From assembly GCA_032358255.1 (NCBI GenBank), contig JAULBX010001447.1, positions 90,253 to 154,252 of the forward strand: a stretch of DNA of 64,000 nt. The letters are read 5' to 3'. Numbering within the stretch: position 1 is the first letter of the stretch; each line of letters opens with the position of its first letter. Below are positions 19,501 to 63,678 of this stretch, piece after piece. The notes beneath the pieces are model-generated. The model had not been told where the DNA came from. It worked only from the letters and a program-made list of their open reading frames with translations, and made no database searches. The translations under genes and the position numbers were made by a program. Origin of the DNA: Heterotrichella gracilis (taxonomy: Eukaryota > Sar > Xanthophyceae > Tribonematales > Xanthonemataceae).

Positions 19501-22500
19501 CATGATGGTATATACCTGCATATTAGGTAGGTGCTATATGCTGTAAGTGTTCAACTTCTATACACGGACACTGTTCATATCGATACTGCAATCATGCTAT
19601 TAGATGATCTCAAAATCGTACATGGCCCATTGCCGCTTCCCCTCCACCTCAACCCCCACCTTGCACGACATTGCCATGTACAGCCACCTGTCCACAGCGG
19701 TCACATGGTACGCGCCGGCTTGCAGCGCAGCAAGGGAGTGAAGGCCTGCAAGGGGAGGAAAAGGGGTGGTCATGCTCCGACCAGGAATTTTAATAGCGCT
19801 GTAAGACGTCAACGACAGCGTAATTGCTATTTTAGTTCCACAGTTTTAAACCAAAATAAAGACGGTTAAAACCTGTGCCCACCTGCCCCGCAACTCAGGT
19901 CCAGCACGCGGCAGTCCTTGTCCTCCCCGTTCACCCTCTCCACCCCCCTCCTGATGGCCTCTAGCCACGGCTTGTGGCGCAGCGTGTCCTGGAGGAAGGT
20001 GAGGTGGCGCTTGGGCATCTTCACGTCGCTCTGCAAGGGGGAAGTATAATGGGAAGTGGTGCAACTGACACTGGGGAGGAAACACGCAGGGAGTGATGTG
20101 GCGCTGGGGCGTCTTCACGTTACATCGCAGGGATGGGAGGGGTGGGAGGTAGTGCCACACAGGGGAGCAGAGATGCAGGGAATTTGCGGCACTGTGTAAC
20201 AGGGGCATCACATGCAATTGCACCGGTGCTATGGCCCCCACGACCTCCACCACCCACACACACCATGACCGGGAAGCAGTTGCGTGTCCATTACACATCG
20301 GTTCTCAAACCCATATCTTAAGCCCTAAGCAGCCCCCCACCCACCACGACCGTTACGTAGTTGCAAGTACGCTCACGTGATGGCTTCAACTCTAAACCCC
20401 AAACTTGTAAAACCTAAACCCTAACACCTAAACCCTAAGCATCCCCCCATGCACCATGACGGTGACATAGTCGTATGAACCCTAAGCAGCCCCCCACCCA
20501 CCACGACCATTACGTAGTTGTAGGTACCCTGCACGTGATGGCCTCAACTCTAAACCCCAAACTTGTAAAACCTAAACCCTAACACCTAAACCCTAAGCAG
20601 CCCCCCACGCACCATGACAGTGACGTAGTTGTATGTGTCCTTCACGTGGTGGTCGTTCTCTGCCTGGAATGGGGTCAGCAGCTTGAGCGGGAGCATCTCG
20701 TTGGTCCTGATGCGGTGCAGGGGCGTGGAGTATGGCTGGTAGGTGATGCGCTGGGAAGGCTCGGGGGCGGGCAGGGCGCGCGTCTCCTTGCCCTTGCCTG
20801 GGAGGATAACACAAATCATCAATAAAAATCACATCTTGGGAGGGGTGAGGTCATCAGGGATTGAGGTCATTAAGGGTGAGGTAATCAGAGGTTGGCACAT
20901 GGTGTGGGATGAGTGTGGGAAGGGTTGAAATTGGGGGATTATTAGAGGATGTAGGACAAGGGGAGAATGAATGTGGGAAGGTGTACAAGGGGACCAAGCT
21001 TGGGTGCCAGTTCGAGAGCACGGCAAGTGTCATGCCATTTGAATGTCTTTTAGCGAGGGTAGTCCCTGCATTGCACGATGCCAAGCGCCGCGCGGGTGCA
21101 AACCCCATTCCATGCGCCCCCCCCACACCCCTCCAACACCGCGGCCTACCCGTCATCAGGTCCTCCACCACCCCCTGGGTTGCCTCCTCATGCCCGACCT
21201 TGCAGTCAAAGTCAAAGGGGTCAAACATAAGGCCATGCTCAAACTCCATCGCTGCCAGGCGGTGGCGCTTGAGGCCAAGCAGCGCCTGGCCGCGCCGCGC
21301 GTAGGACTTGACGAGGTAGGGCACAGCTTTCTGGTTCCTGCAAGGGGGGAGTTAGGGTTAGGCTTCAGGTTAGGGTTCCTGCAAGCAGCGCCTGGCCGCG
21401 CCGCGCGTAGGACTTGACTTAATAGGGGACAGCCTTCTGGTTCCTGGCAGTGTAGTAGAGGGCATTCAGGATACCGTCTGAGGTCCAAGGGTCAAGGGCA
21501 CAGCCGCAAAGTTTAGGGATCAGCTTAGGGTTCAGCTTAGGGTTCCTGGCAGTGTAGTAGAGGGCATTCAGGATACCGTCTGAGGTTAAAGTGTCAAGGG
21601 CACAGCCGCAAAGGTTAGGATTCAGCTTAGGGTTCAGCTTAGGGTTCTATCAAATTTCAATCCATCAATACATGCAACAACATCCAGACAGCCGCTGCGT
21701 GAAGCTGGTTGCAGCCACTTACAGCCTCTTGAGCACCGCCAGCGCCAGCGTCCTGCACCTGTCTGCATCCCAGATGGCCTCCTCCCAGAACCCCAGGCGG
21801 ATGTAGGCCAGGGAGCGGTTGGAGTGGCAGATGTGCAGCTCGGGGTGGGTCAGGTTGTGCTCCCGCACCTGGGAAATAGGTGCCAAAATGAGGGGGATTT
21901 TTGCGCATTTGGGGGGGTAGGGAGGGGGATGGTGTTGGTGTGGGGTGTAATGTTGCATGCAGGTTGCGGTGGCAGTTGTGCAGTTTGGGGTGGGTCAGGG
22001 TGTGCTCAAGCACCTGGGAAATAGGTGCAAAATGAGGGATATTTCGAGGAAATGTTCGAGGACATTTTAACCATGGAGGATGTTGGTATAGGGTATTGTG
22101 TTGCATGCAAACTGTAGTGGCAGATGTGCACTGCAGTTTTTTCCGGTTGAGCTCCCGGGAAGGGGATCCCACTCATCTCGAGAGTGAATTGCGTGGGTGT
22201 GTTAATGGGGTTGTAGTGCTCTAGCAGGCTTTGGTGTCTGGGAGCGGCAATGAGGGGAGGACAGGTTGGCCTCGCACAGATCACTGAGGATCATAGGGAT
22301 GTAATAGCATGGTGCATATGCATATCCCTTTGCAGCTTTGTTACCACCCTCCAGCGGCAGCTACAATCTACAATCTGCGGTGCGTGTGGGAGGGGGGGTA
22401 TAAGGAGACAGATTTCCTCCGCATACCTTGCGGAAGAGCTTGACGTACGCCGCAACCGCAGAGACGTTGTCCCCCTGCTTCAGAAACCTGATTGCCTCGT

Positions 22501-37428: not shown

Positions 37429-40400
37429 ATGCTAACACTTCCACTCATGCCACGTCAGGTGTGTACTGCCACGTGCCGCAGGCTCAATCAACAGCGCCAA
37501 ACTTGGTGGCAGCAACTGGCGGCCACAGTGGCAGCCCCAACCACGCACGGTGGTAGCTGCCACACTGCTGGACTGGGCATGGGAACTAGGACGCTATTGG
37601 GGTCATCCAGTGGGGCACCCTTTGCTGCTGAATCACACTTTGCGCTGAAGAATGCATGGGCAAGAGCTGCTGCTGCCGTCACTGTGCTGCTCCTGCTGCT
37701 CCTGCTGCTCCTGGGTTGCTCCTGGCTCTGGCAAGGGCCGCATGCTGTCAGCACCCAACCCCAGGCAACACCTTCTGGAGACCTATGCAGTGGTGCAAAT
37801 AGCTTCTGTCATCAGTCAGGCATGATGGTCCCTGGGATAAGCAACACGGTCACATGGAGCGGGAGCAACATGCAGGTATGGTGCGCATGCGCCGATGCAA
37901 TTGATGCCCGGTTGTTTTTGGTGACCGTACTTCCATTCCCTATCTGCGCATTATCACATGATCTGATGCGCCTTGTAATCGCTCAGCGGACCCTAGCAGT
38001 GCTGTGCCTTGTAAGTGTTGCTCACATATGCGCATGCCCATGCTAAGAAGACGTCTGGCGTTATGCATTATCTGCTTTATGCATCTTGTATGCACATGCC
38101 AGTCTTATTGAAATAACAAGGCACACATTCGCTATCGCCAATCTGAGATTTGAATTACATAGCAAATAACACCACACCGAGCTGAGTTATCCCAGATAGG
38201 GTGCAGTTGTGGTGGGCCAGCCTCTGCAGTTGGCTGCAAACCCCTTCATCCCACAGCGCATCGGCACTCCTTTGGCCCACACATCTAGTAGAGGTAGTCA
38301 CCACTCATATACATTCACATCTTCTACTGCGTATCCTCTCCCATCCCCCACAGGTACCCACCCAAGTGCCTACCCTGCACAACCCTCATCAGCATGCCAC
38401 CCCTAAGCTCCTGTCCAGGCGCCACCTGTCCCAGGCTCCAGTCGCCACCCCAATCCCAGGGTACGCCAAGGTGCACACAACTCAGGAGCTGCAGCAGGCA
38501 CTGGAGGATAAGACAGTGTACTTGATCGACGTGCTAGGTGAGGGCTTAGGGTTAGCAACCAGGTCCCAGGGTTTGCGAATGGTTGCGGCGGTGGGCTTAT
38601 TGGAGCTAAACATCTTGTTTGGGAGGTTGGCTCATTTCATCCAAATATGCGCATGACAGGTGCACGTGTGTGATGCCGCCAATGGCATCTTGTTCAGCCA
38701 CCATGCTAGCAAAATGTGCACTGGTGATCACAACCCAGTGGTAATTTCAATTTGCTGCCCTCTGGCATTCAATGTGTTTGTAAGACTATACCAATTGATG
38801 TTGGTGTTCACCCTGCTCAATTACCTCCCCATGCCCTAAAGTCGCTTCCCTTGCTGCAGGCAATCTCACCAACCCCAACTACCCCCCACCCTCCTGGAAC
38901 ATATCGCGCCCACCTTGTGCCACAACCCTACAGGGTAATCGCACGGTGCAGATCAACGGCAACCGGCCAGCCGGCGGCCCCCTACCCGAAATCGATTTTC
39001 AGTACCTCCCTTGCGTCATCCGAGTCACTACTGGCAGCCAGATTGAGTTTCGAAACCTCGAGTTGACTCGGCTTGACTACAACACGAGTCCTGCATTGTA
39101 CTCGGCTGCGGCGGGGTTCAACTCATTTGCGGATGGCTTCTTGCTGTGGCCTACCCTGGACATGCAGGCGGGATCGCAGGTGGGTGGGCGTGGTGGCATG
39201 TGGCCCCTTGGAGGCAGGGGCCTTGGCCTTGTGGGTGTTGGGGGTGTAGATTTGTCATTCAGCGGTTTGCGTGGTGCCATCCTCACCCACATGACGCACA
39301 GCTGCCTAGCGCATGTGATATGCTTTATACACACCCGGTGACCAAGTTACCTTGGTCAACGTCACCATCCACATCCCCAAGCACCCACTACTCCACACTT
39401 CTTCATCCTTGCAGATCACCCTGGTCAACGCTGCAGTGCTGTTCACTACCCTGCCGTCAACTGTGACCGATTTACGCAGGAGCTCTCTCCACACCCTAAA
39501 CCCTATACCCTAAATGGAAAACCCTATATAACACATGTCGCCCCTGACAGATTAACCTGGTCAACACCACCGTGCACTACCCTGCCGCCTCCTGCGACCC
39601 AGAAGCCGTGGCCAGGGTTTTCATTTCGACGCTGACGGAACTGGGGCCTCAAGCGGTGGTGACAGACCCTGCCAACCGAAGCACACAGATCACGACGCCA
39701 GAGTACCTGTATCGATTTCCAGTGCGAAAGACTGCCAAGAATGATACTGGTGGGGATGAAGGTGGGTATGTGGGTATTTTTTGGGCTGTATTGAAAAAGC
39801 AACTACCAATGATATGCATTTAACTAGAATGAACCTACGTTGCTGTATTAGTTGGTGAGCACTTGAATGGCCAGCCTGCTTGGCAATGCCAAGTGTAAAT
39901 CAATACTGTGTAAACGCACCCGGTAGAATTTGCAGCGCTCTGCAATTGCAATCACTGCACTATTAGTAAAGACAAACGTCTTTCACAAAATTTATGGTGG
40001 AAACGTTGACTGAGTTTTCCTTTCCACCTCTGGCTGTGCCCTCTGCAGTTGGCACAGCGCAGATGTCCATCAGGGGCACAAATACCTTCGTATGCACCCT
40101 CCCTCCTGGAAGTGCCAACGCCACCAATGAGGCGGAGCCACAGCCACCCCCTCCTCCACCTCCAGCTGGGGGTGGCACCAATGCAGCCATGGTGGTGGGT
40201 GTGGTGGGGGGTGCGGTTGCGGCAGCCATCCTGTTGGTGGGCTTGGTTGGCGTGTTGGTGTGGCGGCATCGGCGCAGGCAACGGGAAGCCATCCTAGGCA
40301 CAGAGCTTACAGAGCCAAAGGTACGCCACCATTGGTGCCTGTCGATTGCAAAACCCTGATTGCAAACCATACATTTAACATGTGCGCTACTGTGACAGGC

Positions 40401-45701: not shown

Positions 45702-48700
45702 ATGCTGACCGCTGAGCGCCTGCAGGAGCATGCGCTGGCGTTTTTCGCGCCTGGCGCGAGTGAGTGGCCATCCACTGTTCGAACCATATGCATGCATTCT
45801 GTCGCCTCTGCTCCTCTGCCACCGCCTCTTCCCCTGCACTGGATGGTTGCCCTGGGTGTACTTCCATCGTTTTTGAAACCTATGCGGTGTTGCTGTGCCG
45901 CCTTACGCACTTTGGCGACGCTCGCCTGCTCTGTGTTGCATGCACAAAGCATAGTGTCATAGACAAGCACCTGCTAACCTCCTTTTGCACCTGCAGCTGT
46001 GGAAAAGCGGCTGCAGCTGGCGCAGGAGGTGCGGGACAGCATCGAGGTGGTCCACTTCCCGGACCAGTACGTCACCTTCCTCAAGCAGTTCTTCCCAGTC
46101 TTCACCCAAGTGCTGCAGACCACCCAGCCCCAGTTCAAGGAGAACGAGGAGCACAAGCTGCGCAACACGGTGCTGGAGATCCTCAACCGGCTCCCAAACA
46201 CCGAGACGCTAAAGCCCTATGCTGTGGAGCTGCTGAAGCTGTGCCTGTCGGTGCTGGACCGTGACAACGAGGAGAACGGGCTGGTGTGCATGCGTATCAT
46301 CTTCGACGTGCACAAGAACCTGCGGCCGCACCTGGAGGCGGAGGTGCCACCGCTCATCGAGTTCATGCGAAAGGTGGGCCTCCACACCGCCTGTAGCTTC
46401 ACTTCCCGCCTCATCTGCTCCATTTTGAGCTGCATTTTATGTACGTTTTGGTCAGGTGCCATGGGGTGCCAACACCTCAGCCTGCCTGTCCCCGAACAGT
46501 CTCTCCCCTCCACGTTGCCACAAAGTGTGTGAGAAGTTTCGCAACCTCAATCCGCCTCCCTCTTGCCCCAGGTGTATGAGAAGTTCCCCTCCACGCACCA
46601 GCACTACTTCGAGGTGATAGCGCCGCAGCTCAAGCCCGAGCAGAAGCTTCAGCTGGAATACGTGCCCAGCTACCAGTCCTACAAAGTGGTGGCAGAGTGC
46701 CCGCTCCTACGTGCGTTTGTTCCCCCTGCATGCCTGGACCTTGAACACAGCTGGTGCCTTGTCGTGCACGCCACACAATACCCACACGGTGGCAGCGAAC
46801 CACACACGCTTTGAGACATGCACTGCACTCGCCACCCCCCTTCTTCATCCCGCCCTCCCACTTCCTTCATACCAGAGGTGCTGCGGTTGATATGGCGGTG
46901 ACCTTCGGTAGAACGCGCCCTCCCCTCCCTCCTCCCCTCCTGCACATGTACTCCCCACCCCCTTTCCCACCCTCACGCGGCTTCCCTCCCCTCCTGGCGC
47001 TCAACCCCCTCCCCGTTCCCCCTCTGTGCAGTCATGTTCCTGTTCCAGATGTACCAGCGCACCGTGCCGCAGTACGTGGCCAACCTCCTGCCCTTCATGG
47101 TGAAGGCCGCCTCGGTACCGGGGCCCAACCCAGACACGGTCAAGGACAACATGCAGGCGCTGTTTGCAGACTTCAAGGCGGCGCAGGTGGGGGAAGAGGC
47201 GACCCTAAACCCTAAGCCCGAACCCTGAGCAGGGCTCGCTCGGACAGGGTGTGCACCCTAACGTTGTAGAGCTGGAGGAGGGGTAGGGCCTCAGGATGCA
47301 GTTCTTGTGCGGTGACCTGCCGGGTTGACAGCTTGTCAATGTCAAGCCAGTGCTATGCACCTTCCGCACATCCTTGACATTTACGGCCCCATTGATGCAG
47401 GGTGCTTCCCCCCCTGCCATTCCCATTGAACAATGCACCTCACCAGCACCACCACCAGGGTGGAAACCCCTAAGCTCCTTGACCCACCTCCCCCACTCTC
47501 CCCAGGTGAAGACCATCTCCTTCCTCACCTACCTGCTGCGCAGCGTGCCCACCATCCTGCGCTCCCTGCCCAACGCCGCGCAGGCCATCTGCGACTGCAT
47601 CGTGACATGCCTGGAGACAGCGCCAGATGTGGTGACCATGCGGAAGGAGCTGCTGGTTTCCACGCGCAACGTGCTGTCCACGCAGTTCAAGAAGTGAGTG
47701 GGTGGTGGTGCACGCGCAGCATGCTGGCAATGCTGTTGAAGAAGTGTGGGTGGTGGTGCTTGGTGTGATGGTGGGGTTGTGCTTGCGCACTGTGCTGTTC
47801 GAGGCATGTCAGTGGGTGCAGAGGTGGTGTGGCGCTGTGTGTGGGGGTTGGGGGCCTGGCACGTGGTTCAAGGTGTGGGTGGCGGGTGACGTTGGTGTGA
47901 TGCGAAGGGTAGGGTGCGGGAGAGCTGACCATGGCTTAGAAGAGAAGAGGATGGCTATTGGCTCAGATACTGGCGCCTCCATCACCCTTCCATTTTGTAG
48001 TTTCTCTCCTGTTTTTCACCTGGTCCTGCACACCGCACACTCCAAACCCCCCACCCCCCACCCCTGCAGCCTGTTCTACAACCGCCTTGAGGTGCTCATG
48101 GACGACCGGGTGCTCATTGGGCGAGGCAGGGCATGCCAGGAGGCGCTGCGCCCGCTTGCCTACTCCATGCTGGCCGAGCTGACGCACCATGTGCGCACCG
48201 AGCTCACTTGGGCGCAGCTCAACAGGGTCATCTACATGTTCTCAAGGTGAGGGCCGGGTGGGGTGGTGGGTGGGGATGGGGGTGGTGGGCGCCATGTGTG
48301 AACCGTAGTCGTAAATTTGGGACTGGTTGGAGTGGGTGGTGTGGTGGTGGTGTACAAAAGGTCCAAGTGTCGGGAACCAAAAATGGACAAAGTATGATGT
48401 CGTATGGAGAAGTTTTATCGTCCTATGGCATCCTTCACCCACTCTTGTCAATTGTCTCCCTCCCCCTCTCTTGCCAAAATTCTCTCTTGCCCACCTCCTC
48501 TCTTGCAAATATCCTCCTCCCCACCTCCCCCCCTTCCTTCGCGCTTGCCAGTAGCCCTCCCCCCCTGTGCAGGAACGTGCACGACGACACCCTGCCCATC
48601 AGCGTGCAGTCCACCTCCATCCGCCTCATGCTCAACGTGGTGGAGGTGGTGTTCAGCAGAAGGCAGGAGCAGCGAACAGCGGAGCAGTACCGCACGCAGC

Positions 48701-51700
48701 TGGTGCGACGGCAGCCCTCAACCCTAGACCTTAAACCCTAAAATTTAGTGGAGGTGGCGTTGAGCTGTAGCGGCCTCAGCGCACGCTCGTACTCCGACAA
48801 CTGTATTCTATTGCATGTGTTGCGGCATGTGGATAATTCCTCTCTACTCTATTGGGGCAGGGGATTTCTAGAATCAGTATCTGCAGCCCACCATGCTTGA
48901 TGACCTGCCTCATCTCCATTCCTTTGCGTTGTGTATAAACTAGCTCTATGCCAGGCCCCTGTCCGCATCCCCATCCCCATCCCTTATCACCCCCACCCAC
49001 ATCCTCCCCCAGGGCCGCATCCTGGAGTGCTTTGTCGCCAAGTTCTCCTACCTGAAGCGCCACACCGCCAAGATGCTGGCCGCCGCCAAGGCCGAGGTGT
49101 CTGCTCGTGAGGCCAAGGAGCAGGAGGAGGCTGGTGGTGCGGACAAGCAGGCGCCGGTGTGCCTGTACAACATGGGGGGAGGGGAGAAGGAGAAGGAGGT
49201 GGGTGGGGAGGGAATGGTGGTGAGGGGGTTGCAGTGGAGGTGGGGGGGAAATCTTGCTGCAATGTGCTGCGCTGAGACACACCTACAGCTTCGGACAATA
49301 CAAGTCCTGCCGCCTGGTCCTTCTTCCGTTAAACTTACTTGAAAAGCACTAGAAGCGACATGTTGGCTGTCTCAGCAGTACAGGCAGATGTGTAGCAGGC
49401 AGCCTTGCACATGGCCCTACTCCCCTGCATAGCATACTCACCCCCTCCCCTTCCCCCCCTTGCCGCAGCTGAACGACAGCAAGACCCTCCTGCAAACCCT
49501 GATCATGGGCATGAAGACACTGCTGTACAGCATCGTCAACTTTGGCAACACGCGGCCCCAGATGCAGCTGGTCCCGGGGATGCCTGTCCCCGCCTCCCAG
49601 GGGATGCGGGAAAACGAGCTGCGCCTGGCGTCCAAAGTGATATCAGCGGGCATTCCTGCGCTGCACCTGTTTAGTGAAACCACTGAGGCGCTGGACATCT
49701 ACGACACATACGCAGACATGTTCACGGTGCTGCAGGTAGGGAAAGGGGCCGGACCCTGCAGGTTGGGGTTAAGGCCTAACCCTACGCACAGATATCAATG
49801 TGGGGAGTAGGGTTTGGGTGGGTCATCCCCACCCTGCTGTTCATCTCATTCAATGTATGGCATCAACCCGACTGCATGTATCTAGAGCTGGATTGCATGT
49901 ACCTAGTGTAATGTACGGCAACGCAGCCATGAGCCACAACCCACTTCTGCAACACCCCTACATCACCCTCTTTCCTCTCGAACTCCCACCGCCACCCCTC
50001 TCTCCCGTCTCCACAGGACCCTCGCGACCTCACCGAGATGTTTGCCCCCCAGCTGCCCTTTTTGTTCCAGCAGCTCATGGTTGAGCCCAAGCTCATCAAG
50101 GTGGTGAGCCAACTGCTGCAGAGCGCACTGGTCAACCGGCACATCGCGCAGCTGCTGCTGGGATACCTGGTGGAGGAGCAGCTGGGAAACCTGGAAGCGC
50201 CAGAGACTAAGGTGGGGGCAGCGGGAGGGCATGGAAGTTTTACAAGATGCAATTGTTCAAGATTGTTTGACGGTCACTCTCAGGGAGCCAACCCAGTAAT
50301 CGTAATCATAATAGTAGTAAAAAATAGTTAAATTATCAATTAAATGAAAGTAGTAATAATAAAATATTTCACTTAGAGACAAAGTGGGGGGCGGGGTGTC
50401 TGTTTCAACACTTTGACTGCCTGTCAGTAAAGTGATGCATGGAAAAAACCTCTAAATTTACAATTCCATTCCGCTGCCTGCAGGAAGCCCACCTGGTCCT
50501 GGCCCTGTTCAAGAAGTTTGTGGAGGCGCTGGCCCTGCCCGCCAACGCGCACCTGGAGGCCTCGCTGCTGCCCCACGCCGCGCCGCTGCTGGCCACCACC
50601 CTGCGGCGCCTGGTGGCTGTGCGCAACAAGAAGGGCTACCTCAAGCTCATGCTGCTGCTGTTCAGGGGGCTGGCCAACAGCAAGTATGAGAGCCTGTACG
50701 CCGTTTTTGGACAGGCGCCGCAGCTGCTGCCCACCGTGACCACGCTCAGGGCCATGCTGGATGGGCCAGGGACCGGCACGTACAAGGTGAGGGATGTGAA
50801 AAAGAAAAGAAAGAAAGGGGGCCTGGGTATGGCTGCTGCTGTTTTGTGGCTGGCAATCAGCAAGAATGAGAGCCTGCACTCGGTGTGTGACTGCTGCCGC
50901 CAATGGCGGGAGCCATGCTGAAATGGCTGGGTATGTGTGTGTGGGGTGGGGCCCAAGAGAAGGGTTGGGAATGAGGCTGCTGTTGCTGATCATCCTCAGG
51001 CCATGCTGGATGAGCCGGCTATGTGGTCATGATGAACAAGGGAGGGTTTCCGTCCCTTCTCCCTCCTCAGGGCATCCTGGTTGAAAGTCTCCCCCCGTTG
51101 TCTCCCCAGTGCAAGACACCCCCCATGAATGTTGCCTCACCCCCCCTTCGCCCCCCCCCGCCCCCCCGCAGGACATCCTTGTTGAGCTGTGCCTCACGCT
51201 GCCCACCCGCCTGTCTGACATGCTGTCGGTGCTGCCCAAGCTCATGCGGCCCCTGTCGCTGGCGCTCAAGGGCACAGACTACCTGGTGGTGCTGGGCATG
51301 AGGACGCTGGAGTATTGGGTAGACTCACTCAACCCCGAGTTCCTGGAGCCAGCCATGTCCGAGGTGGTGGCCGAGCTGATGGGCACGCTGTACAGCCACC
51401 TGCGGCCGCACCCCTACCCGCACGGGGGCAAGGTGCGTGGCGGCGGTTGTGTGTTGCTTTGGGTGCAAGATTTGTGTGTAGTGGGTGGACAGGCTGAGTC
51501 CTTCTTAGGGTTTCTTGGCCTAGAGGAGATGGTGGGTGAGCTGATGGGCAGCCAATAATACCTCAACGTATTGATACCGCCTCTCGTGAAAATCTGCGAC
51601 CGCATGCTTTAGTGCAAGGACGCTGAATCCCTCCAAAACCCTACGAAAGCTTGACAAGCACCTCCCTCAATACTCTGTCAAAACCCTCCCCAAACCCTTC

Positions 51701-54700
51701 CTGAAAACCCTTGCCACCCCTTTCCCCAGGCCCTCCAGCTGCTGGGCAAGCTTGGTGGCCGCAACCGGCGCTTCATGCGCGGCCCCACCGAGCTTGAGTA
51801 CAAGGACAAGTCCGAGCACGGCATGCGCCTCATCCTCACCTTTGAGCCCGCCACCTCTTTCCTGGTGCCTTTGGACAGATGCATCGCACTGGCAAGGGGG
51901 GCGGTGGCAAAGCCATTCCACCCAAAGAGTGAGTGGACATTGAGTTTGGAACCCTAGGCGAGGGTTTGGTGAGGCGTTTTGCTGTGGTGTTACCAATTGT
52001 GGTCCATCTGGTCATAGGGGTACTGCTGGATGGGTGTGGCAGCCTGGGTAACCCCCCGTGCCAAGCTTACAAAAGAAATTATCTGTTAGCCAGGTTGCTG
52101 GCTGCTCTCCCCTTGCTCATGCCCTGCCCTCCCATCTTTTGTCCTCACCCTTTCACCCGCCCTTTGCATTTGCCTTCCCCCTCCCCGTCTGCTCACCTTC
52201 CCCTCCCACCCCGCAGACTCCAAGGAGCTTACTTACCAGCGCCAGCAGGCCCTGCAGTTCCTCCAGGTGTGCGCGTCAAGCGTGCTCAACCTGCGGCCAG
52301 CGGGCGAGTCGGGCCTGCCGGGGCCACCTGCGCACAAGCTGGCTGCCATGCTGTTTGACCCCACCATTGACCCGCCACAGGTGCGGCCGGGGTGGAGGGT
52401 GGAGGAGGTGGTTTTGTTGTTGTGGATCACAGGCCAATGGTGCTGATGCTCCCCTGGCATGCCATCCCCTGGACACCGGTGCTGCGTGGGGGTGTGGGGT
52501 TTGTGATTAGAGGGTGGTTGGGTCCTGTTGGGGAACTGCTTGTAATTAAGCCACCTGGTGATGGCCAGGCTGGGTCCTTGAGGGACCAGGGTTTAGGAGT
52601 ACGGGTTGATTTTGGCGTAGGAGACGCCTGCATGCGGTGGTCCCCTTGTCACGTTATTTCCCCCCCTTGGCGTGTAATTCTTCTTTGTCCATCACCCCCT
52701 TGCAGGTTACCACTGAGCAGGTTGCGCATATCATGGATATGGGGGTCAAGACAAAGACGCAGCTCAGTGCGGAGAGGGAGGTGCGCACATACCCTAAATC
52801 CTACACTCTATAGCCCAAAAATCTCCATGCGTGCAAATCCTAAACCCTCAGCTGTGGTGGCCGAGTGCCCCCCCCCCTCCTCCAGTAGCCCTCCATCACA
52901 CATGGGGGTACAATTACCGGTACAGCGATGATTTGATATCCATGCCTCTTTTTGCTCCCCAGGTGCTGCGCGTGCTGCTGACCACCACCATGGGCGCCGC
53001 GGCAGACGACGACATGTCAGACTCCGCAACCTCATTCGCGCACAACACCTGCCGCCACTTTGCGCTGCTGTTTGCCGCCGGCGCCTCCTCGCCCCCGCCC
53101 GCGGTCCCCACCAGCCGCCAGCTCGACCTGGGGATTGCACGCCACGCCCTCAGCGTGACCAGCCTCAAGGAGTTGGACCCATACGTGTTCCTGGATGCAC
53201 TGGTGGAGGTGAACCCTAAACCCTAACCTATTAACCCTATACCCTAAACCAGCCTCAAGGAACTGGACCCATACGTGTTTTAGGACGCGCTGGTGGAGGT
53301 CAACCTTGAAACCCTAAAACCATTGAACCCTAAAACCTTAAATGTGGGTTTGTGGGGGTGGGTGGTGGTGGTGGTGTGTGCGTGCAAGTGCGATTGGTTG
53401 TTGTTTGTGCGGAGCGTGACCTCAAGTTGTACCTGTATACGTGTTGCAGGATGCACTGCTACAAGTACCCCCAACCCCCAAACCCCAAAGCCCTAAACCC
53501 CGCTCCTCATCCCGCAGGTCATCACGGCTGGGGAGGCCAAGACCGCCACCGGTCTCGAATGCCTGTCAATCTTTCTGGACACCCTGCTGGAGGTGCACGC
53601 GGTGCAGCAGCAAATCGAGGCGCAGGCGCCTCCCGGGGAGGCAAAACCAGACAAGGCGATCCCCGAAAATGCTGCCGAGGCCCCCATCGCACCCACGGAG
53701 GGTGCTCAGCCAGGAACGGAAATGGTGGAAGGGGAGGGGACTGCGGCTGGTGCTAATGCTGCGCCCATGGCTGTGGTGGACGGTGATGGTGGTGGTGGGG
53801 ATGCTGGTGCTGCCAGTGGGGATGCTGCGGCAGCTCCTGCAGCTTCTGACAATGATCCCAAGCTGGCTGAAGCTGTGCCTGTAGAGGTGAATCCCTATTT
53901 CCTTAACCCCATCCCTATTTTCTTAACCCCATCCCGAGATCACGCGTGGTGCATGTGGGCCTCCCGCTGTGTTTGCGCTCGCATTGCAATGCCGCCCCTA
54001 CGCTGCGCCTACTCTCTTATTGCAAGTGCAAATGCTGATTGCACGCTCCTCTGCAAACACCTGCATCCCCATTGCGGTCCCTCCCCTATCGCTGCAGCTG
54101 CTTTCCACTTGTTGCAGTTCCCACTCCTGTCGCCCCGCCTGGACATTTTCTGCATGTCTTCGGGTATGCAATCCCGTTCCTGACTTGAAATTTACAACAT
54201 CCCATACATTCCAACCCACGCATAACCGCACACTCCCGCAACATCCCAAATATGCCTACTCCAGTTTACATCAGCCCTCACCCCCCTCTTCAACCCTCCC
54301 ACAGGCCCCCCTCAACCTGCCCCCCAACGCTCGGCCCCAGCGGCCTCCCGCCCCCATCCTCCCTCCCCAGCCCCCCCGCCGCCGCGCGCCCCCCCTGTCT
54401 GTCCTCTCTGACCTTGTGCCGCGCATCTTGCACTGCTGCTACGGGGACACATGGGCCGCGCGGCTGGGTGGGGCGCACTCTATCAACATACTGGCGGACA
54501 AGTGCGTGGGTCAGGGTTGGTGGCAGGGTTTGGGGTAGGGTTTTACAGTAAGAGGAACACAAGGGACTTGGGAAGGATTTTGGGCAGGGTATATGCCTGC
54601 CATGAAACGGGTTTGCCAGATTTCTGCCTGCCAGGTTTATTTTGGGTTCCTCTCTGGTGCAGTTTTGGTAGGATTCCTGCATGCTGCAAGAAGCAAGTCT

Positions 54701-57700
54701 TGACCGCTTTTCCTTGCTGCAGGCTCCCGCTGCCCATGCTCCAGCAGTACCTGCCCGCCCTGGTCCGAGCCCTGCTCACCGTCATCGGCCTGCTGCCCGA
54801 GCACTCTGTGGCTGAGCGGGAGGGCATCACCGCTTCAGTGAAGCGGGTGCTGTGCAAGGGGGTGGGTATACCCGAGCCAGACGAGGAGGAAGAGGAGGAG
54901 GAGGGGGATGCAGGGGAGGCAGCGGCGGCTGTGCCTGCTGCTCAAGAAGGGGAGGAGAAGAAGGAAGGGGGGGCGAAGGTGGGGGAGGAGGTGGAGGAGA
55001 AGAAAGAAGGGGAGGAGGAGCCAGTGCCTGCGCCCCAGGAAGGGGAGGGCATGGAGGTGGATGCAAAGGAGGAGGTAGGCGATGTGCACGTAGGACGGGT
55101 GTTGCTAGTTGCAGGCCCTCCTCGGAACTGCTATACATGTTTAGGGTTTCAAGGCGTGGTAAGGTTAGGGTTGTTGTCTTCCTCGTCTTACACCTTTTGG
55201 GCAACAGCATGTGGCAGGATAGGGGCTGAAAGGACTTGCTGTGTCCCAAAAGTAACTGAAACCCTAGCAACCCTAGCTCGTTGTCAACAGTCCATGTGCT
55301 GAGAGCGAGTTTTGTCCTATCCCAGTATGACAGCATTGTCACCCCCGTGTGCTCCCTCACAGGTCCCTGGCACCCCCGGGGCCACTGCGCCCCCCCCGGC
55401 CACTGCCCCCGCCCCCGCCCCCGCCCCCCCCCTGGTGCCCCGTTCCGCTGTTGAGGCTGCTGCTGAGCCCCTGGCTGCGGTGCTGGTCAGCCCTCAGACA
55501 CCCAGCTGGCTCAGGGAGAGTGCAGACGCATGCCTCAAGGCAAGGGTGTGGCTGTGGCTGTGGTCATGGTGGTTGAAAGTGTGCTTGTGGTTGTGGCCAT
55601 GGGGCTGGGAGCAGTTGCAACGCTTTTGGTGTTTGGGACACCCGGTAACCATGAGCAGGTTGTAGGCCGATTATTAGGACAGACAGTGGCCAGCAGCAAT
55701 GGTGGGAGATACTTGCCATTTCATGTGTTATGGTAAGCGGGACCACATAACAGGGCAACAGGCTCCCGCCCCCCTTTCCCCACCTCTCCCCGTCCGATCC
55801 CCCCCACACCCTCCTCACACCCACCTCCCACCCCCAGATCCTGTCGCGTGCCAGCGCCACCCCCCTGTCTTTGCTCATCAAGCCCACGCTGGAGCGGCTC
55901 AACCCCCCGCTGGACAAGCGGCGCCTGCTGCCCATCAAGAACATCAACCTGAGACTGGGCCTGGCGGCGGCAGTCACCTACTGCCTGCACCAGGACCCGC
56001 CGCTGTTCAGCCTGAGCCAGGTGGGGTTTTGGTAGGGTTTGGAGGGCTGCGGCAGGGGTTTGGCACGTTGCGATTTGGAGGGTTTGGGTTGGGTGGAGTG
56101 TGCAGCTGGGGAACGCGGCGGGAGTCACATGCTCCCTTTCAGCAGTGCCCACAACTGTTTGGCTTGGGTCCTGTGGGGTTCCGGTAGGGTATTGGTAGGG
56201 TCCTGGAGGGTTGTGGAGATGGTCGCCTGTGACCATACATTCTACAGCCTCCACCCCATCCAAGAGGTGGTCCTCCTTGCCGGTCCTAAACCCTACACCT
56301 TGAACCCTAACCACCCCCTCCCCGCTGCAGGAGATTGTCCTGCTGGCCTCTGACGCGTTTGTGATTGTTGAGATGAACGACGCGCTGCTGAGCAGCAACA
56401 TCGCCAGCCAGCGCTCCGTGGGCCACGACACCCTCACCAAGCTGAGGCGAGCTGCCATGGAGCTGCTGGCGGCAATCATGGTGTGGAAGGACTTCAGGTG
56501 AGGGGGCAAAGCTGTGTGTTTGGGGGGGTGGGGGGGTGTAGGGGACCATGGTCAAAACAAGTTTGTAGTAAAAAATAAGAAAGTTTGAAATCTATTATTT
56601 TTCATTTAATGCCCAAAATTTGCCGCTGTGGCTGCGGCATGCCAACGCCACAATCTATCCCCACTCTCACGGCGGACTCCGCCGACCTGCACAACCCTAA
56701 CCCAGACCCTAAACCCCGATCCTGACCCTGACCCCACCCTCTCCACGCGCAGGGACTCTGCCGAGCTGCACGACCTGCGCAACCGCATCCTGCACCAGTT
56801 CTTTGTGTGCCTGGGGTCGGGCGACGCGCAGCTGCTCCCGCCCGCTAAGGCCGCCGTGGCGCACCTGCTGGTGCACACCAAGATGCCCAAGAACCTGCTG
56901 CCCGCCTCGCTCAAGCCCATCCTGCTCAACCTGGGCCACTCGCACAAGCTGCGCCTGTCGCTGCTGCGCGGCCTGGCGCCGCTGCTGGAGCTGATGTCGG
57001 GCTACTTCTCGATTACCCTGGGTAAGGGTTTGTGGGCGTGGGGGCCAGGAGTTGGAGAAGGGGGTTGGGTGGCCCCTGAGCCGGTACTAGCGACGAACCA
57101 CATTCCATGCGGCAAATGGCAGTAACGAGTTGATTACATTATTTGCATGTGTTCATACATTCCTCGTCATGTGCTCATTCTTCCACTCATCCATGGAAGC
57201 AACAAGCGCCTAAGCAACACAGCCGCGACTAGAGGGTACCCTGCATGCCGTGCAACCGGTGCTTTGCTCCTGCTGACGTGTTCTTTCCCCCTGCCCCCAG
57301 GCGACAAGCTCATCTCCCACCTCAAGGAGTGGCTTGAGCCTGAGAAGCTGATGGCTGCGCCGCACGCCTGGGAGGCTGGCGAGGAGCCTCAGGTTGCTGC
57401 AGCGGTGCTCAACCTGTTCCACCTGCTGCCCAAGCAGGCAGTCATGTTCTTGGAGACATTCAGTGCGTGCCGGGAAACCCTGAAACCCTAACTTGAAAGC
57501 CCTAAAAACACCCTACTTGTGAATTGTCAGGCGTGAACTATGCCCATGCTGCCCAGGGGGCGGTCATGTTCTTGGAGGCGTTCAGTGCGTGCCGGGGAAA
57601 CCCTAATTAAACCCTACTTGTAACCCACTAACCACCCTTGTTCCAGGCGACCCCGCCAACCCTCAACCCTAGGCCCCAAACTCTGTCCCTCGACCCTCAA

Positions 57701-60700
57701 CCCCAAACCCTCCGCTGCCCCAGGCGACCCCGCCAACCCCCAGACCAACCGCCCCGGCCTGGTCATCCTGACCATCGAGCTGGAGAACGCGCTGGCCTCC
57801 ATGCCCGCCACCACCCTGCCCTCGCGCCTGTGGTCGCCCTACCGCGAGCCCCTGATTAAGTTCCTCAACCGCTACGTGGGCGAGGCCACCGCGTACTTTT
57901 TGGACGCCACCCGCATGTCCAACCCCAACTACTTCAACAGGTTCCTGGCCATCGTGCGGTCCGAGCAGGGCCGGCCGCTGCTGCAGAGCGTCATGCAGAA
58001 TGCGGACAAGCTGGCCATGCTGCTGATGCCGGGCAGCGGGGAAGGTGGGTGCGCAAGTGTGATGCATTTTTTTGGGGGAGGGTTTTTGTGCAGGGTTTAG
58101 ATAAGATTGGATGGAGGCTGGATTACGTCTGCAGGATCCTGCGTACGCCATGAATTTACAGGATTTCTAACAGTCACGAGGGAGCCAACTCGACTCACGG
58201 AGAGCATTCCCTCACCGTCCTGTCATGCTGTCCCGCCCTTTACCCGCCATTCTCTTGAACCTCGTACCCCTCAGGCCACTTTGTCCCCCGTTGCTATAGT
58301 GTCCCCCACCCCGCCCCTCTGTGACCCCCCCGTTTTCCTCCCCTTCAGGCCACTCCAACCCCCTTGAGACCCAGCTGCACTGCCTGCACCTGCTGTCCGT
58401 CATCACGCGGCTCCAGCCCGACTGGCTGCCTGACCACATCTTTGAGGTGCTCATGGCAAAGTGGAAAGCGCCGGCACGGGTGGAAAGGTGAGGAGAGGAT
58501 AATATAATTTGGATGGTTGGATAGTCATTTGTAGATGTACATGACCACTGGATGGCGGGGAAAGGGAGAGGAGGTTGTGGGAGGGGCGAGACGTTTACAC
58601 TTATGAGAATCCCCTGCGATTTTTTATTGGTCATCATCCATTACAGGATCAAGTTCGTTTGGGAACAGAAATGTTCCTATGCAAAGGCGGGTGCACGCCA
58701 TTGACAAGCCCCAAACCCCGCCATCTTGCACACCACTAACATACAACCCTCCCCTCCCTTTCCCCCCCAGGCTGCAGAAGGAGATGGAGCTGCCGCTGCT
58801 GCAAGTGCTCGAGTCCAAGCGCATCGCAAAGTGCGTGCTGGGCTACGTGCGGCGCCACCCCGAGCAGGTGTCCCCGCTGCTCCAGCTGTGCTCCATCTTC
58901 CTCACCACCACGCGCGTCGACTTCTCCTTCCTCAAGGACTTTTACACGGACGTGGTGGCGCAGCACTACAGCGCGGAGCACAAGCAGGAGGTGCGGGGAC
59001 CCTAGGGAAGGGTCTGTAACATGTTACTTGCTTTCCAAATCACAGGAAAAACATGCTTCACACATCTCATACTGTGTGCTGGGTGGTGTGCGTGTGGCGC
59101 TGCAGCAGGCTGGGGAAAAATGTGTGGGGGTGAAGTAGGTATGTATCCATGTCTCCCTCTTGAGGGCTTTTATGCTGAGGTAGTGGCGCAGCAGCACAGG
59201 GCAGAGCACATGCAGGAGGTGGGGGAAACCCTAGCAAAGGGTTTGTGGCGGTCTTAGGGTATACGACGGTGAGGTATGCAGGGGTTCTACACTGGCGTGG
59301 TCAACAGGTGACCGAGGGATCCCATCTATATCTGATGCGATGCACCTTACATCTCTGACCGCCCCCTTCTGCAATCCTGTCACAGTTCTGCTTGCCGCAA
59401 TTCCCTTAAAATCCCAAATTTTTAGTAGTGCACGCCTCCCCCTTGTGACCGCCTCCCTCTCCCCCCGCGCTCAGGTCCTCTCCCAGTTCCTGTCTGCGTT
59501 CAAGTCCCAGTCGCTGCCCCAGGAGCAGCTGATGTACGCGCTGCGCCTGCTCATACTGCCAGTGCTGGACGAGGCGTTCACCAGGGGGGAGGCAATACTG
59601 TCCGAGGAGGGGGTGACCACCATAGTCAAGGACCTGCTGGACCCGCCGGATGACGTGGCAGGTGGGTGGGGCACCGAGGGTCTTGATCAGGGCTTTGTTT
59701 AGGCACCGGGGATTCTGATTTAGGGTTTCAATAAGGCCTATGGTTAGTGTTTTGGTTGTGACCCACAAGTAGTTGGCCAGGGACAGGGTAGCAACAAGCA
59801 ACGGAAAAAGCATTTATATAAACAAACTAATAATAAAAATAAAAACTCTTCTCTATTTAGCAGCACTGTATCAGGTACATTCCTGAAATACCACTAGTCC
59901 GGACACTGTTGCAACACAGGCCACGTTGCAACAGCTTCCAGGTCAGCCCAAGAAAACCACAGGGTCTTAATCAACGCAACCAAAACCCTAGGAAGGGTCC
60001 TAACCATCCTAACCAAAACCCTAAACCTAGCCACCATCACCTGGCCTTGCAGCCAAGTACAGCGAGGGCCTGAAAATCGAGCTGCTCAAGCTGGACACGC
60101 TGCTCATCCCTGAAAACCCTAGGCCCTAGTCACCCTGAACCCTAACCGCCCCGCCACCCCTTGCAGCCAAGTACAGCGAGGGCCTGAAGATCGAGCTGCT
60201 CAAGCTGGGAACGCTGCTCATCCGGCGCGTGCCCGGCAGCAGCATGAGCCAGCACCGCAAGGAGTTGATCAAGTACGGGTGGGGCATGCTCAAGCGAGAC
60301 GACAGCTGCAAGTACTACTCGTTCCTCTACGTGGCGCACTTTTTGTCGGAGTTCTCCGCGCCAGAGAAGATCGTGCTGCAGGTGGGTAAACCTTGATTGG
60401 CGTGGGAAGGGCAGGAGGCTGGGTGTGTGTAGCTTATTGTTGGTAGCTAGCAACCATTTGTGCGGGTCTTTCATGCGAGCATATGCAATTTGGAATATGC
60501 CTTCGGGATGGTTTGGGGATCTGGTAACATTTGAAGCACACTTTTCAGCCAAAATCGCTGCGGTAATCGGGGTATGAAGACCCGAATTACGGTAGGTGAT
60601 GTTGGACGCTTTGTGTAAGGCTGGGTGCTGGTGTTGGTCTTGGGTTTGGTGATAGGGGTAGCTACTACTCACATCAAAGCCCTTTTAAAACCCTATCAAA

Positions 60701-63678
60701 ACGCTGCCCAAAACCCTTGCAAAACCCTCCCCACGCAGGTGTTTGTGGCCCTGCTGCGCACCTGCCAGCCCGACTCCCGCCGCAATCTTGTGCGCCAGGC
60801 GCTAGATGTGCTCACCCCTGCAGTGGCCAAGAGCCTGGTCAACAGCGGGGCGGAGGGGGGGTCCCAAGGGGGGTCGCAATTCCAGGGGGCGTCGCAATCC
60901 CAGGGTGTCCCGTCATCCCAGGGGGCGCCGTCTTCGTCCCAGGGAGGGGGCACGCAGGGGTACAAGGTCCCGCTGTGGATTCGGTGCGTGGGTGGGGTTT
61001 GCGGGGGGGTCTCGGCAGCGTGGGTATGCACGCTTGGTTTTTGCACGAGAAGGGGTGTCAATTTTATGTCTGCAGTAGGGTTTCTTCAATATGTAAACTC
61101 CTGTAAAATGCAAACCTTGCAACCATGCATAACCTGCCACCTTACCTGGTATACCAAGAAGGGCCACTCCCTCCCTTTATCCCTACCTGAAAACCCCACC
61201 CTAAAACCTACCGCCCCCGCAGGTACACCAAGAAGATCCTGGTTGAGGAGGGCCACTCGCTGCCGCACCTCATCCACATATGGCAGCTCATCGTGCGCCA
61301 CGGGGACCTGTTCTACCCAGCCCGGTCCCAGTTTGTGTCGCTTATGGTCAGCTCGCTGGCAAGGTTTGGCCTGCCGCAAAATTCCCCCGCTGAGAACCGG
61401 CGCCTAGCGATTGACTTGGCCGCGCTCATTGTGCGGTGGGAGCAGCAGCGGCGGGCAAATGCGGTGGCGGCGGGAGCCGGCGAGGAGGGGGTGGAGACGG
61501 CTGCGGGGGCGGAGGTGGGTGTGGTGGTGGGGGCGCATGGTGTGGCATGGTGTGGCAGGGATTGGCAGTGGGCTAGGCAGCTTTGGCATGTGGTCCCTAC
61601 AGTATGCATGTTATACTTGCAAATATAATATACTTATAGACTCAAGTATATAACATGCATACTGATGCATGTTAGTATGCATGTTACACACATATGCATA
61701 ACATGTAATTCACACCAGCCTTGTGTGCAGTGCTTGCAAAATGGGGTCTTTGCTCAGGCATGCATAGGTGCTTTCTCCGCAGAGTAGCCAACCACCCTTG
61801 CTGCCAACCCACACCCCTCCCCTTGATTGTGCAGGCACCGGAGGCCGCCACCAAGAAGCGCAGCCGCTCCGACATGGAGGCCACTGACGAGCCCCCCGCC
61901 CCCATACCCCCCACACCCCCCACCGAGGCGCCATCCCCCGACGCCCCCCTGGCACAAGGGGATGACCCCTCCGGGGCCCCCGCCCCACCCCCCGCCAAGC
62001 AGCTCAAGGCAGAGGATGGCAGCGCGGTAGCCACTGAGGCGGCGCCAGGTGGCGCCTCCACCTCTGGTGCAGGTGGCGAGGGGGGCGGGGTGCTGGCGTC
62101 TGAGGCGTCCGACCTGGGTAGGATCGGCAGCATGCGGCTGCAGCCCTCGCCCTCGCTCACTGACCTGCCGGTGCAGGGCAGTGCTCAGGTGGGTGGTCAC
62201 GCTAGCGCAGGGTGTAGGGTAGTTTGTTGCCATGGCGGAGGTCTTGGTGCCCTGCTTGCTTAGGTTCAAGCCCCATTGCTGTGCCAAGCAGAAACCACAA
62301 GCCCTGGTGTTTGCCCAGCAGAAAAGCATCCCACGGACGTCCTGAACGATCCCCTTGCATGGCATTGGACAGGTCGTGTGTTTGACCCAGCCCAGGCTCC
62401 AGCCCCTCTCCTGAAAGTACCATGCCCCCCCTTCGCCTGCAGGCCCCCCCGCGCGCCCCCTCGGTTGACAACGAGTTCAAGCCCTCCCCCACCATGATCG
62501 AGATGATCATCAACTTCCTCATGCGCATGACCTTCCTGCTGGGCGAGGGCAAGGAGAAGGACGTGCAGCAGCTGCAGCAGCACACGCTCATGCTGCTCAG
62601 GATAGCGCTGGCGCTGTGGCCCGAGGTGCGGGGCTTTGCTAGGTTTTAAGTAGGGTTTTGTAGGGTTTTGTAGGGCAGAGACGTTTACCTGCTGGCCAGG
62701 AGGCTTTGATTAAGCATTGCATGATGTGGGCAAAAACAATTTGGTCTGTCCTTGGGATGGTCTGGATGCCGTCTGTTAAAAAATTTCACCCTGTTTTACA
62801 TTTATGTACAACCAAATATTTAGCTACTTGGAATCTCTCGCCATTACCATCAATACCCTCTACACACACCCTGTCACCCCCCTACCACGCGCTGCTCAAA
62901 CCCTACCTATATCCTGCTCAACCCCTATTTAACCCCTACCCCGCAGGCCAACGTGAAGATGGGCTACCTTGAGAAGCTGCTGCAGACCAACATCCAGGCG
63001 CAGCTTGACCCGCCCCCCGCCCTGGTCACCGCGCTGGAGGTTATGCGCCTGGTGCTGGACAAGCACAGCCAGTCATTCGTGCTGTCGTCGTACCAGATGG
63101 TGGGTAGGGGTGCACGGGTGGGGGAGGATTGGGGGTGTTTTGATCCCTTTGTGTGTGTGAGAGAGGGTGAAGGGGCAGGGGTGTCCTCTAATTGCCGTGG
63201 GTGTGCGAGGGTGGGAGTGGGTGTCCCCTCCCCTTGCGTACCGGCTCCGTGCCTCCCCCTTTTTGATTGCTTGGTTTACTGGGGTTCATTCTGACTACAC
63301 ACTGCCAGCACTTGGTCTTTTCCCTTCATTACATGTATATCCCCGACCTGCCGTGCGTCGATTGTGGCCTCCACATGTTGTTGCAATGGCCCCCTCCCCC
63401 CCCACACATCGTTGCCATGCTGTACCCTACCTTCAGCACTCTCGCAATCGACAACCCCAATCCCCTGCTGTGCATGTGCAGATTGTCGCCATGCTTGACC
63501 CCACCTTCAGCACCATTCCAATTATTGACCCCAATCCCTTCCCCTGCATGTGCAGATTGTGGCCATGCTGGACCCCACCTTCAGCACCAAGCACGCCACC
63601 ATCGTGCAGCAGCTGTGCGCGGCGCTCAAGATACTCTACTCAAAGTACCCCGTGCCAAAGCCGGAGACGGTCAAGGAG
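45702..63678 (+). CDS. TRA1: Tra1/TRRAP, scaffold of SAGA and NuA4-type acetyltransferase complexes: first 35 exons (~2,478 codons), 3' part outside window
   Basis: Exons: 45702-45759, 45997-46373, 46572-46710, 47032-47186, 47506-47693, 48070-48246, 48573-48702, 49013-49198, 49469-49735, 50017-50211, 50484-50786, 51172-51432, 51730-51928, 52217-52380, 52706-52780, 52963-53208, 53518-53886, 54305-54501, 54723-55074, 55363-55545, 55838-56020, 56331-56497, 56753-57021, 57301-57462, 57724-58044, 58349-58487, 58771-58990, 59475-59661, 60167-60381, 60739-60983, 61223-61514, 61835-62188, 62443-62625, 62947-63099, 63556-63678. All phases agree. Tra1/TRRAP is a HEAT-repeat PIKK-family pseudokinase that binds activators. 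Diagnostic blocks are LDRDNEENGLVCMRIIFDVH, ALRPLAYSMLAELTHHVR, GMRTLEYWVDSLNPEFL, RQALDVLTPAVAK, KKILVEEGHSLPHLIHIWQL and RRLAIDLAALIVRWEQQRR. The start MLTAERLQEHA matches the family N-terminus. FAT and kinase-like domains lie beyond the window. Low-complexity inserts are in exons 17, 19 (Glu-rich) and 32. Exon 20 may instead end at 55539 with a GC donor. Confidence 0.96.
47711..47758 (+). repeat. Copy of the exon 5 end and donor of Tra1/TRRAP in intron 5
   Basis: CACGCGCAGCATGCTG...TTGAAGAAGTGTGGGTGG repeats the exon end CACGCGCAACGTGCTG...TTCAAGAAGTGAGTGGGTGG that finishes at 47693, only 18 bp away. The donor GTGAGT has become GTGTGG. Confidence 0.8.
50833..51014 (+). repeat. Diverged copy of ~140 nt of exon 11 in intron 11
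   Basis: The exon 11 stretch coding LLLFRGLANSKYESLYAVFG (50647-50712) recurs at 50833-50890 with a frame-breaking change and TGA codons. Its later part (CTCAGGGCCATGCTGGATGG) recurs at about 50994-51014. Confidence 0.8.
53249..53300 (+). repeat. Copy of the exon 16 3' end, with a stop, in intron 16
   Basis: CCAGCCTCAAGGAACTGGAC...GTGGAG copies the last ~50 nt of exon 16 (ending 53208) with CTGGATGCA changed to TAGGACGCG, which introduces a stop. CCCTAAAC repeats lie on both sides. A shorter echo follows at about 53430-53465. Confidence 0.88.
57548..57672 (+). repeat. Copies of the exon 24 end and the exon 25 start inside intron 24
   Basis: 57548-57603 repeats the exon 24 end (GCGGTCATGTTCTTGGAGGC...TTCAGTGCGTGCCGGG). 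57644-57662 repeats the exon 25 start with its acceptor (CAGGCGACCCCGCCAACCC). Both ends of the same intron have therefore been duplicated inward, with AACCCTAA patches between them. Confidence 0.85.
59161..59300 (+). repeat. Copies of the exon 27 end in intron 27
   Basis: 59161-59224 repeats the last ~60 nt of exon 27 (GTAGTGGCGCAGCAGCACAG versus GTGGTGGCGCAGCACTACAG). A weaker second copy (TTCTACACTGGCGTGGT) lies at about 59283-59300. Confidence 0.82.
60045..60109 (+). repeat. Duplicated start of exon 29 with intact acceptor
   Basis: CCTTGCAG followed by CCAAGTACAGCGAGGGCCTG is present at 60045-60109 and again at the functional acceptor (60166/60167), nearly identical over 50 nt at a spacing of ~113 bp. 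The upstream copy has no donor and runs into CCCTGAAAACCC. Confidence 0.9.
61147..61180 (+). repeat. Short copy of the exon 31 start
   Basis: GGTATACCAAGAAGGGCCAC at ~61148 repeats the exon 31 start (GTACACCAAGAAG...GGGCCACTCGCTG, from 61223) with an internal deletion of ~15 nt. Confidence 0.7.
63405..63600 (+). repeat. Three tandem copies of the exon 35 start, ~75 bp apart
   Basis: Acceptor plus first codons ([AG]TTG[TC][CG]GCCATGCT...CC[CT]ACCTTCAGCAC) occur at 63408-63440, 63474-63515 and the functional copy from 63549. The last two have identical ATGTGCAG acceptors, and a tiny fourth echo is at about 63358. The middle copy could act as a competing acceptor. Confidence 0.88.

Follow-up and report, generated by a model that had tools for sequence, protein, structure and literature searches.

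The window analysed here, a stretch of 64,000 nucleotides from Heterotrichella gracilis (positions 90253-154252 of contig C17, in an assembly of 68.5 Mb and 903 contigs), carries on its forward strand a Tra1/TRRAP gene of 35 predicted exons that is truncated by the window end. The assignment is based on the gene model, Pfam and solved chains, as the residues of predicted exons 2-13 match both the Pfam family Tra1_central (E 3.8e-120) and solved TRRAP/Tra1 chains. A run of G at 63940-64000 closes the window, and C17 probably ends nearby, with the assembly edge cutting the TRRAP gene.

An earlier note on this DNA had described copies of exon edges in the flanking introns of ten exons of this gene, numbered as in the 35-exon model of the gene finder used here. 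When each exon edge was compared with its own intron, against a null of 400 comparisons with other introns, a copy was present in the flanking intron at all ten named edges (p<=0.01 each). Overall, 13 of at most 68 edges passed p<0.02 (exons 3, 5, 11, 12, 16, 21, 23, 24, 25, 27, 29, 31 and 35), with about 1.4 expected; those of exons 12, 21 and 23 are additional to the original ten. The weakest edge is that of exon 31 (p 0.01), and the exon 3 match spans only 14 nt. At a stricter score of at least 30, nine edges are retained, in 8 of the 34 introns. The gene, its copies and the intervening telomere-like tracts are:

45702..63678 (+): Tra1/TRRAP gene, 35 predicted exons, truncated by the window end
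46525..46538 (+): short copy of the exon 3 start; exon starts at 46572; p 0.0025
47711..47759 (+): copy of the exon 5 end with donor site; source 47661-47711
50832..51016 (+): exon 11 copies in two pieces, 50832-50879 and 50987-51016; sources 50651-50699 and 50737-50767
51538..51550 (+): short copy of the exon 12 end, newly found; p 0.0025
53209..53247 (+): telomere-like tract (CCCTAAA-type) separating exon 16 from its copy
53248..53341 (+): copy of the exon 16 end, donor site and following telomere-like tract; source 53158-53248
53425-53458 (+): weak third piece of exon 16
56115..56159 (+): weak copy of the exon 21 end, newly found; p 0.0025
56674..56696 (+): copy of the exon 23 start, newly found; source 56753-56775
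57547..57638 (+): copy of the exon 24 end, donor site and telomere-like tract; source 57424-57514
57622..57665 (+): copy of the exon 25 start with acceptor site; source 57699-57742
59152..59246 (+): copy of the exon 27 end with donor site; source 58923-59017
60018..60109 (+): copy of the exon 29 start with acceptor site; source 60132-60223; exon part 54/57 identical
60110..60166 (+): telomere-like tract plus acceptor region, separating exon 29 from its copy
61157..61175 (+): partial copy of the exon 31 start, the weakest; p 0.01
63405..63515 (+): exon 35 start with acceptor site, copied twice in tandem; exon starts at 63556

Other genes of the window are affected too, as had been proposed, although they number four (with 10 more matches) rather than three:

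2664..3053 (-): array of exon-edge copies in gene 1296-5358, including one (2768-2818) that the gene model treats as a 51-nt exon
20319..20652 (-): end and donor site of exon 20613-20797 copied twice, with telomere-like sequence
21276..21647 (-): start of exon 21150-21337 copied repeatedly, in 106-nt steps
21817..22044 (-): start and acceptor region of exon 21723-21868, duplicated at a step of about 148 nt
39407..39469 (+): copy of the beginning of exon 39551-39761

The exon called at 2768-2818 (-) is an in-frame copy of an exon end, and the predicted protein repeats a short peptide. It is possibly an exonised copy or an error of the gene model, and is the window's one candidate, inferred from that model, for the creation of cryptic exons that the earlier note had suggested. 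Elsewhere in the window, two related genes (8324-8793 and 11638-12231) have in-frame 111-nt tandem repeats that encode segments described as proline-rich and as containing cysteine, and a tandem array with units of approximately 266-346 nt lies in predicted intergenic DNA at 32180-33073, the sole clearly noncoding array in the sampled blocks.

Frequency, anatomy and decay of the copies

The sample consisted of the window, further stretches chosen by place (40 kb from each of contigs C1-C5 and 20 kb from each of C40 and C80) and FAT-domain loci on C12, C316, C137 and C322. Block C1 was left out of the counts as a likely contaminant owing to its 36% GC content; the stretch concerned, C1:40001-80000 (L008-L011), belongs to the largest contig and is bacterial-looking. 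Gene models for all statistics were produced ab initio by a hidden-Markov gene finder self-trained on the sampled blocks, with no outside data, which converged on the consensus CAG/GTGAGT for donors and TGCAG/G for acceptors. The blocks comprise 112 kb of intron, 90 kb of exon and 78 kb of intergenic DNA; the 395 predicted introns used are each at least 60 nt long, shorter ones having been dropped, as were exon edges of < 30 nt from the comparison of edge 60-mers with introns.

Across all blocks, 25 of 382 donor-side and 23 of 385 acceptor-side edge 60-mers matched their own intron with a score of at least 30, a large excess over the control comparisons with other introns (0/1910 and 1/1925, respectively). 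Neither side gave any match between exon edges and the reverse complement of their own intron, in agreement with the direct orientation originally reported. These 48 matches fall in 42 of the 395 introns, so that roughly a tenth of the introns in the DNA sampled carry a short, decaying, direct copy of the edge of a neighbouring exon, and the phenomenon reaches beyond both TRRAP and the window. The blocks chosen by position only (C2, C3, C4, C5, C40 and C80) have a copy in 14 of 277 introns, indicating a higher density in the window and at the FAT-domain loci than in the remaining blocks; clustering from gene to gene was not significant (permutation p 0.10). When the set is narrowed to the 231 introns whose splice scores are good and whose flanking exons reach 60 nt, 30 carry a copy. 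Exon pieces at 60-120 nt from the edge matched in 3/292 and 3/284 cases, and those lying deeper in the exon in 0/539. Random 60-mers from intron interiors matched their own intron in 34 of 1120 cases versus 22 of 5600 in other introns, while the corresponding figures were 6/545 for intergenic pieces and 11/556 for exon pieces compared with the same exon.

After extension, 40 of the 48 matches cross the splice junction. The exon part has a median length of 48 nt (5-95%: 30-84), so that copies of 15-100 bp, as first described, are a somewhat low estimate; the copy distance is mostly 70-200 nt, with a median spacer of 64.5 nt. Exon sequence makes up a median of 0.41 of the unit, and more than 0.6 in 3/48. 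Unit lengths are evenly spread modulo 3 (16/16/16), implying no selection for frame. The noncoding flank is duplicated as well in 23 of 39 testable events, whereas such sharing is undetectable in the other 16, which include two of the youngest (C3:18211, with 35/36 exon identity, and C5:9719, with 30/31); contiguous tandem duplication would thus explain most events, but not all. Introns with a copy have a median length of 376.5 nt, compared with 260 nt for those without, which bears out the suggestion that the copies lengthen introns.

Mismatches between exon and copy occur at 98/783, 93/777 and 192/772 of the first, second and third codon positions (0.125, 0.120 and 0.249, respectively). A rate that is the same at the first two positions and twice as high at the third would be expected if one copy drifts freely while the exon is constrained, and it does not match the retained coding constraint of a duplicated or mutually exclusive exon. 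Median copy divergence at codon positions 1 and 2 is 0.119, being at most 0.06 in 17/48; identities range from about 97% to < 75%, with indels present and ages mixed. Donor-side copies retain GT in 16 of 20 cases and have lost it in four, and acceptor-side copies retain AG in 18 of 21 and have lost it in three; in 12/20 and 15/21, respectively, the score reaches at least the 5th percentile of those of real sites. As most copies keep GT or AG, mis-splicing through the copied sites is possible, judging by their sequence. The use of mRNA as a template was also considered and rejected, since the sequence beyond the copied border showed no continuation into the exon that follows (the best score in 41 events was 18, a figure read without a matched null).

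Distribution relative to coding sequence

Copies are not restricted to introns. They were found within 300 nt downstream of 5 of 42 stop codons and at 1 of 39 starts, the start case and one stop case being the same place (C40:1803/1911), which was judged a mis-ended gene and set aside. The remaining stop-codon duplicates (4/41) all carry the stop codon or 3' UTR sequence, from which it follows that the process is not splice-specific. Within exons, in-frame tandem repeats of similar unit account for 10 exon-exon pairs at five places. Both observations speak against the splice site or exon border as such being the anchor.

The wider distribution was surveyed through a self-comparison of all blocks, retaining direct pairs of at least 40 nt within 800 nt of one another at E<=1e-4. 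This yielded 69 close pairs, none of them inverted, of which 54 lie at coding edges (about 40 separate places by our own count of rows), the 10 noted above are exon-exon and five are noncoding. Three of the noncoding pairs are intergenic, all derived from the array at 32180-33073, and two are intron-only, one of these lying inside an edge array and the other including 6 coding nt. Purely internal duplicates were likewise rare (3/365 introns and 2/257 intergenic tiles).

For head-to-tail duplication to place exon sequence in an intron, the unit has to include the splice site, and border copies alone consequently prove no border process. Detection in noncoding DNA was therefore gauged with 110-nt tandem duplicates planted in introns and intergenic DNA, of which at least 59/60 were recovered at up to 12% drift per copy, and 46/60 and 41/60, respectively, at 16%; unplanted controls gave detections in 6/60 intron and 0/60 intergenic contexts. 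An earlier planting simulation with a shorter-range search had recovered 139/188. As planted noncoding duplicates are nearly always recovered, survivorship alone cannot explain the edge excess, and the excess at coding edges over noncoding DNA is real. Units containing < 20 nt of exon are nearly absent, a scarcity that uniform placement fails to predict and that speaks for some requirement for exon sequence. The original proposal of a process anchored at exon borders stands in part: the concentration at edges is upheld by the 54 edge pairs against two intron-only and three intergenic ones, but anchoring at the border or splice site as such is not supported.

Telomere repeats at intron ends

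The telomere repeat of this genome is TTTAGGG, seven contigs starting with (CCCTAAA)n, and a repeat identical to it is concentrated at intron ends, where the same heptamers show the top enrichment; an unbiased search of 7-mers ranked telomere rotations top at both ends. Telomere 8-mers number 599 in introns (approximately 27 expected), 24 in exons (3 expected) and 66 in intergenic DNA (12 expected). Along introns, they occur at 14.1 per kb in the first tenth and 11.8 in the last, compared with 2.2-6.2 between, with peaks at distances of 10-30 nt for donors and 20-45 nt for acceptors. Near acceptors, the C-rich strand is nearly always the sense strand (11.57 versus 0.24 per kb in the last intron tenth). 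Genome-wide, CAGGTGNG is followed by AACCCTAAA within 3-30 nt in 630 instances, as against one for a reversed-pattern control, and AACCCTAAA by TGCAGG within 8-38 nt in 1489, as against two for the control. Tracts scoring at least 24 are present at 30/342 and 25/342 intron ends, compared with 0/44 stops and 0/44 starts; given that stop codons are duplicated without them, duplication does not depend on the telomere link. Examples of splice-adjacent tracts in the window are found at 53209-53247, 57476-57514 and 60110-60166.

Tracts and copies are associated at the same intron end. Introns with a donor-side copy have a tract in their first 60 nt in 12/24 cases versus 56/295 (odds ratio 4.3, p 0.001), and those with an acceptor-side copy have one in their last 80 nt in 13/23 versus 40/296 (odds ratio 8.3, p 6e-6); the odds ratios between copies and tracts at the opposite intron end, 1.5 and 0.5, were not significant. 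The overall association also holds within genes (p 0.011). Of 24 informative events, 19 have the stronger telomere-like sequence next to the used site and 5 next to the copy (p 0.011), a bias that would fit either the entry of telomere sequence at the duplication junction or the favouring of tracts beside the used site. A search for older copies at the ends of telomere tracts gave few cases (donor 4/32 versus 3/240; acceptor 1/25 versus 5/250). In all six places picked on other contigs because the telomere pattern matched twice at short range, each tandem unit combines an exon edge, a splice site and a telomere-like tract, in steps of approximately 98-150 nt, and the multi-copy arrays show graded divergence. 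For instance, at L043 (C48:58150-59050) one exon edge, together with its donor site and a telomere-like tract, forms a tandem array of five or more copies at steps of about 150 nt.

Origin of the copies and comparison with known systems

The explanation we favour, with a probability of roughly 0.6, is recurrent tandem duplication through break repair within coding DNA or at its edges, retained only where the protein survives. Stretches of mostly 70-200 nt spanning the end of a coding segment, whether donor, acceptor or stop, would be duplicated directly and recurrently; where the splicing or stop signal on the protein side stays intact, the duplicate would be tolerated and decay neutrally in the intron or 3' UTR. 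Duplications breaking the frame would be lost, and in-frame ones in tolerant regions of the protein would persist as protein repeats. The likely machinery would be error-prone repair of staggered breaks, through either fill-in with end joining or local template switching; telomeric repeats would be inserted at these intron ends or attracted to them. On our analysis, break repair of the staggered fill-in and telomeric insertion type appears the most likely source of the copies; this machinery, coding DNA as its target and the order of telomere insertion relative to duplication are what we infer from the pattern. What is targeted may be the edges themselves, or else any coding DNA, selection then sparing the edge events. 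Standing against this explanation, the data leave unaccounted for a much heavier hitting of coding DNA and its edges than of introns, and pure tandem duplication does not fit all cases, 16 of the 39 events having no detectable shared noncoding flank. A tentative, and on balance doubtful, extension is that a repair process acts throughout the genome on the ends of coding segments, breaks at junctions being handled partly like chromosome ends, with telomere repeats added just within introns and the exon edge re-duplicated. Were this true, exon-edge minisatellites would steadily lengthen introns, and splice junctions would be preferred breakage sites and a main source of intron growth.

A process specific to splice sites, in which junctions suffer breakage or template switching, for instance where transcription pauses or RNA-DNA hybrids form, and telomerase-type repair adds telomere repeats to them, would account for telomere-like peaks near donors and acceptors with nearly none beside stops or starts, for same-end odds ratios far above those for opposite ends, and for units roughly centred on the junction; it is nevertheless unlikely, as duplicates occur at 4/41 stop codons without telomere tracts and in-frame tandem repeats exist inside exons. 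Plain survivorship supposes that duplications arise evenly everywhere, that exonic ones are purged and that the exon copy does not drift. In its favour, exon sequence entering an intron head-to-tail must carry the splice site, copies decay neutrally with no frame preference, stop codons are affected too and intron-interior 60-mers exceed their controls. Yet the present data are already contrary to it: only two intron-only pairs were found in 112 kb and one intergenic array in 78 kb, against 54 edge pairs, internal-only duplicates are confined to a handful of introns and intergenic tiles, and planted noncoding duplicates are detected, making this account quite improbable.

That the copies or tracts are functional, as decoy or back-up splice sites or as tracts favouring the true site over its duplicate, draws on the splice scores of the copies and on the stronger telomere-like sequence beside the used site, but is very hard to reconcile with a codon-position pattern that is that of a neutral copy, the loss of splice bases in 4/20 and 3/21 copies, their mixed ages and the copies at stop codons. 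Least credible of all is an assembly artefact, through collapsed alleles or mis-joined reads; the assembly is fragmented and the window closes in a long G run, but copies ranging from near-identity to < 75%, with indels, arrays of graded divergence and placement exclusively at coding edges are contrary to such an origin.

The description of the copies as a feature class that could not be named was too strong, as both small tandem duplication through break repair and internal gene duplication are already known. Gao and Lynch 2009 and Hellsten 2011 reportedly treated internal gene duplication and the gain of introns through tandem genomic duplication. Both are covered by a review (PMC3443670) and a Drosophila study (PMC2891723), and the likeness lies in exonic segments being duplicated with splice-site sequence, one copy becoming intronic; in our case, by contrast, the border pre-existed and no new intron arises, only intron growth. 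The fill-in of staggered breaks by CST and polymerase alpha-primase (PMC8355091) gives rise to small tandem duplications that are likewise direct, head-to-tail, tens of nt or more in length and without a homology requirement, and a telomere complex takes part in that fill-in; the copies described here differ in being confined to coding edges, recurring at one site into arrays and lying beside telomere repeats. Mammalian telomeric repeats enter at breaks, some with direct target duplication (3/66 horse loci; PMC7215372), and resemble the present tracts as short, internal runs of the species' own repeat, sometimes with target duplication. The human intronic share given there fits random insertion, whereas the tracts reported here crowd at splice sites. 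Introners also remodel introns genome-wide and are reported mostly from fast-evolving lineages such as green algae (PMC9860276), but the copies here come from the adjacent exon and form no dispersed family in the comparison of exon edges with other introns.

Among the literature titles covered, which mostly exclude subscription papers, none concerned a clustering of telomere repeats at the ends of introns or copies of exon edges in such abundance. The type of event, small tandem duplication, is known, and it is the confinement to coding edges, the density and the telomere company that merit follow-up. If edge confinement extends genome-wide, intron length in this lineage would grow largely by re-copied exon borders and the relics would represent a datable record of break repair, while the crowding of telomere sequence at splice sites would tie telomere-type repair to intron evolution.

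Two candidates for intron gain by tandem duplication, C40:14679 and C12:5408, were rejected and read as mis-called exons; both introns end in a copy of the upstream exon with no matching downstream start (scores 21 and 15, from two introns). Together with 2768-2818, they serve as a warning for annotation, in that copies get called as exons.
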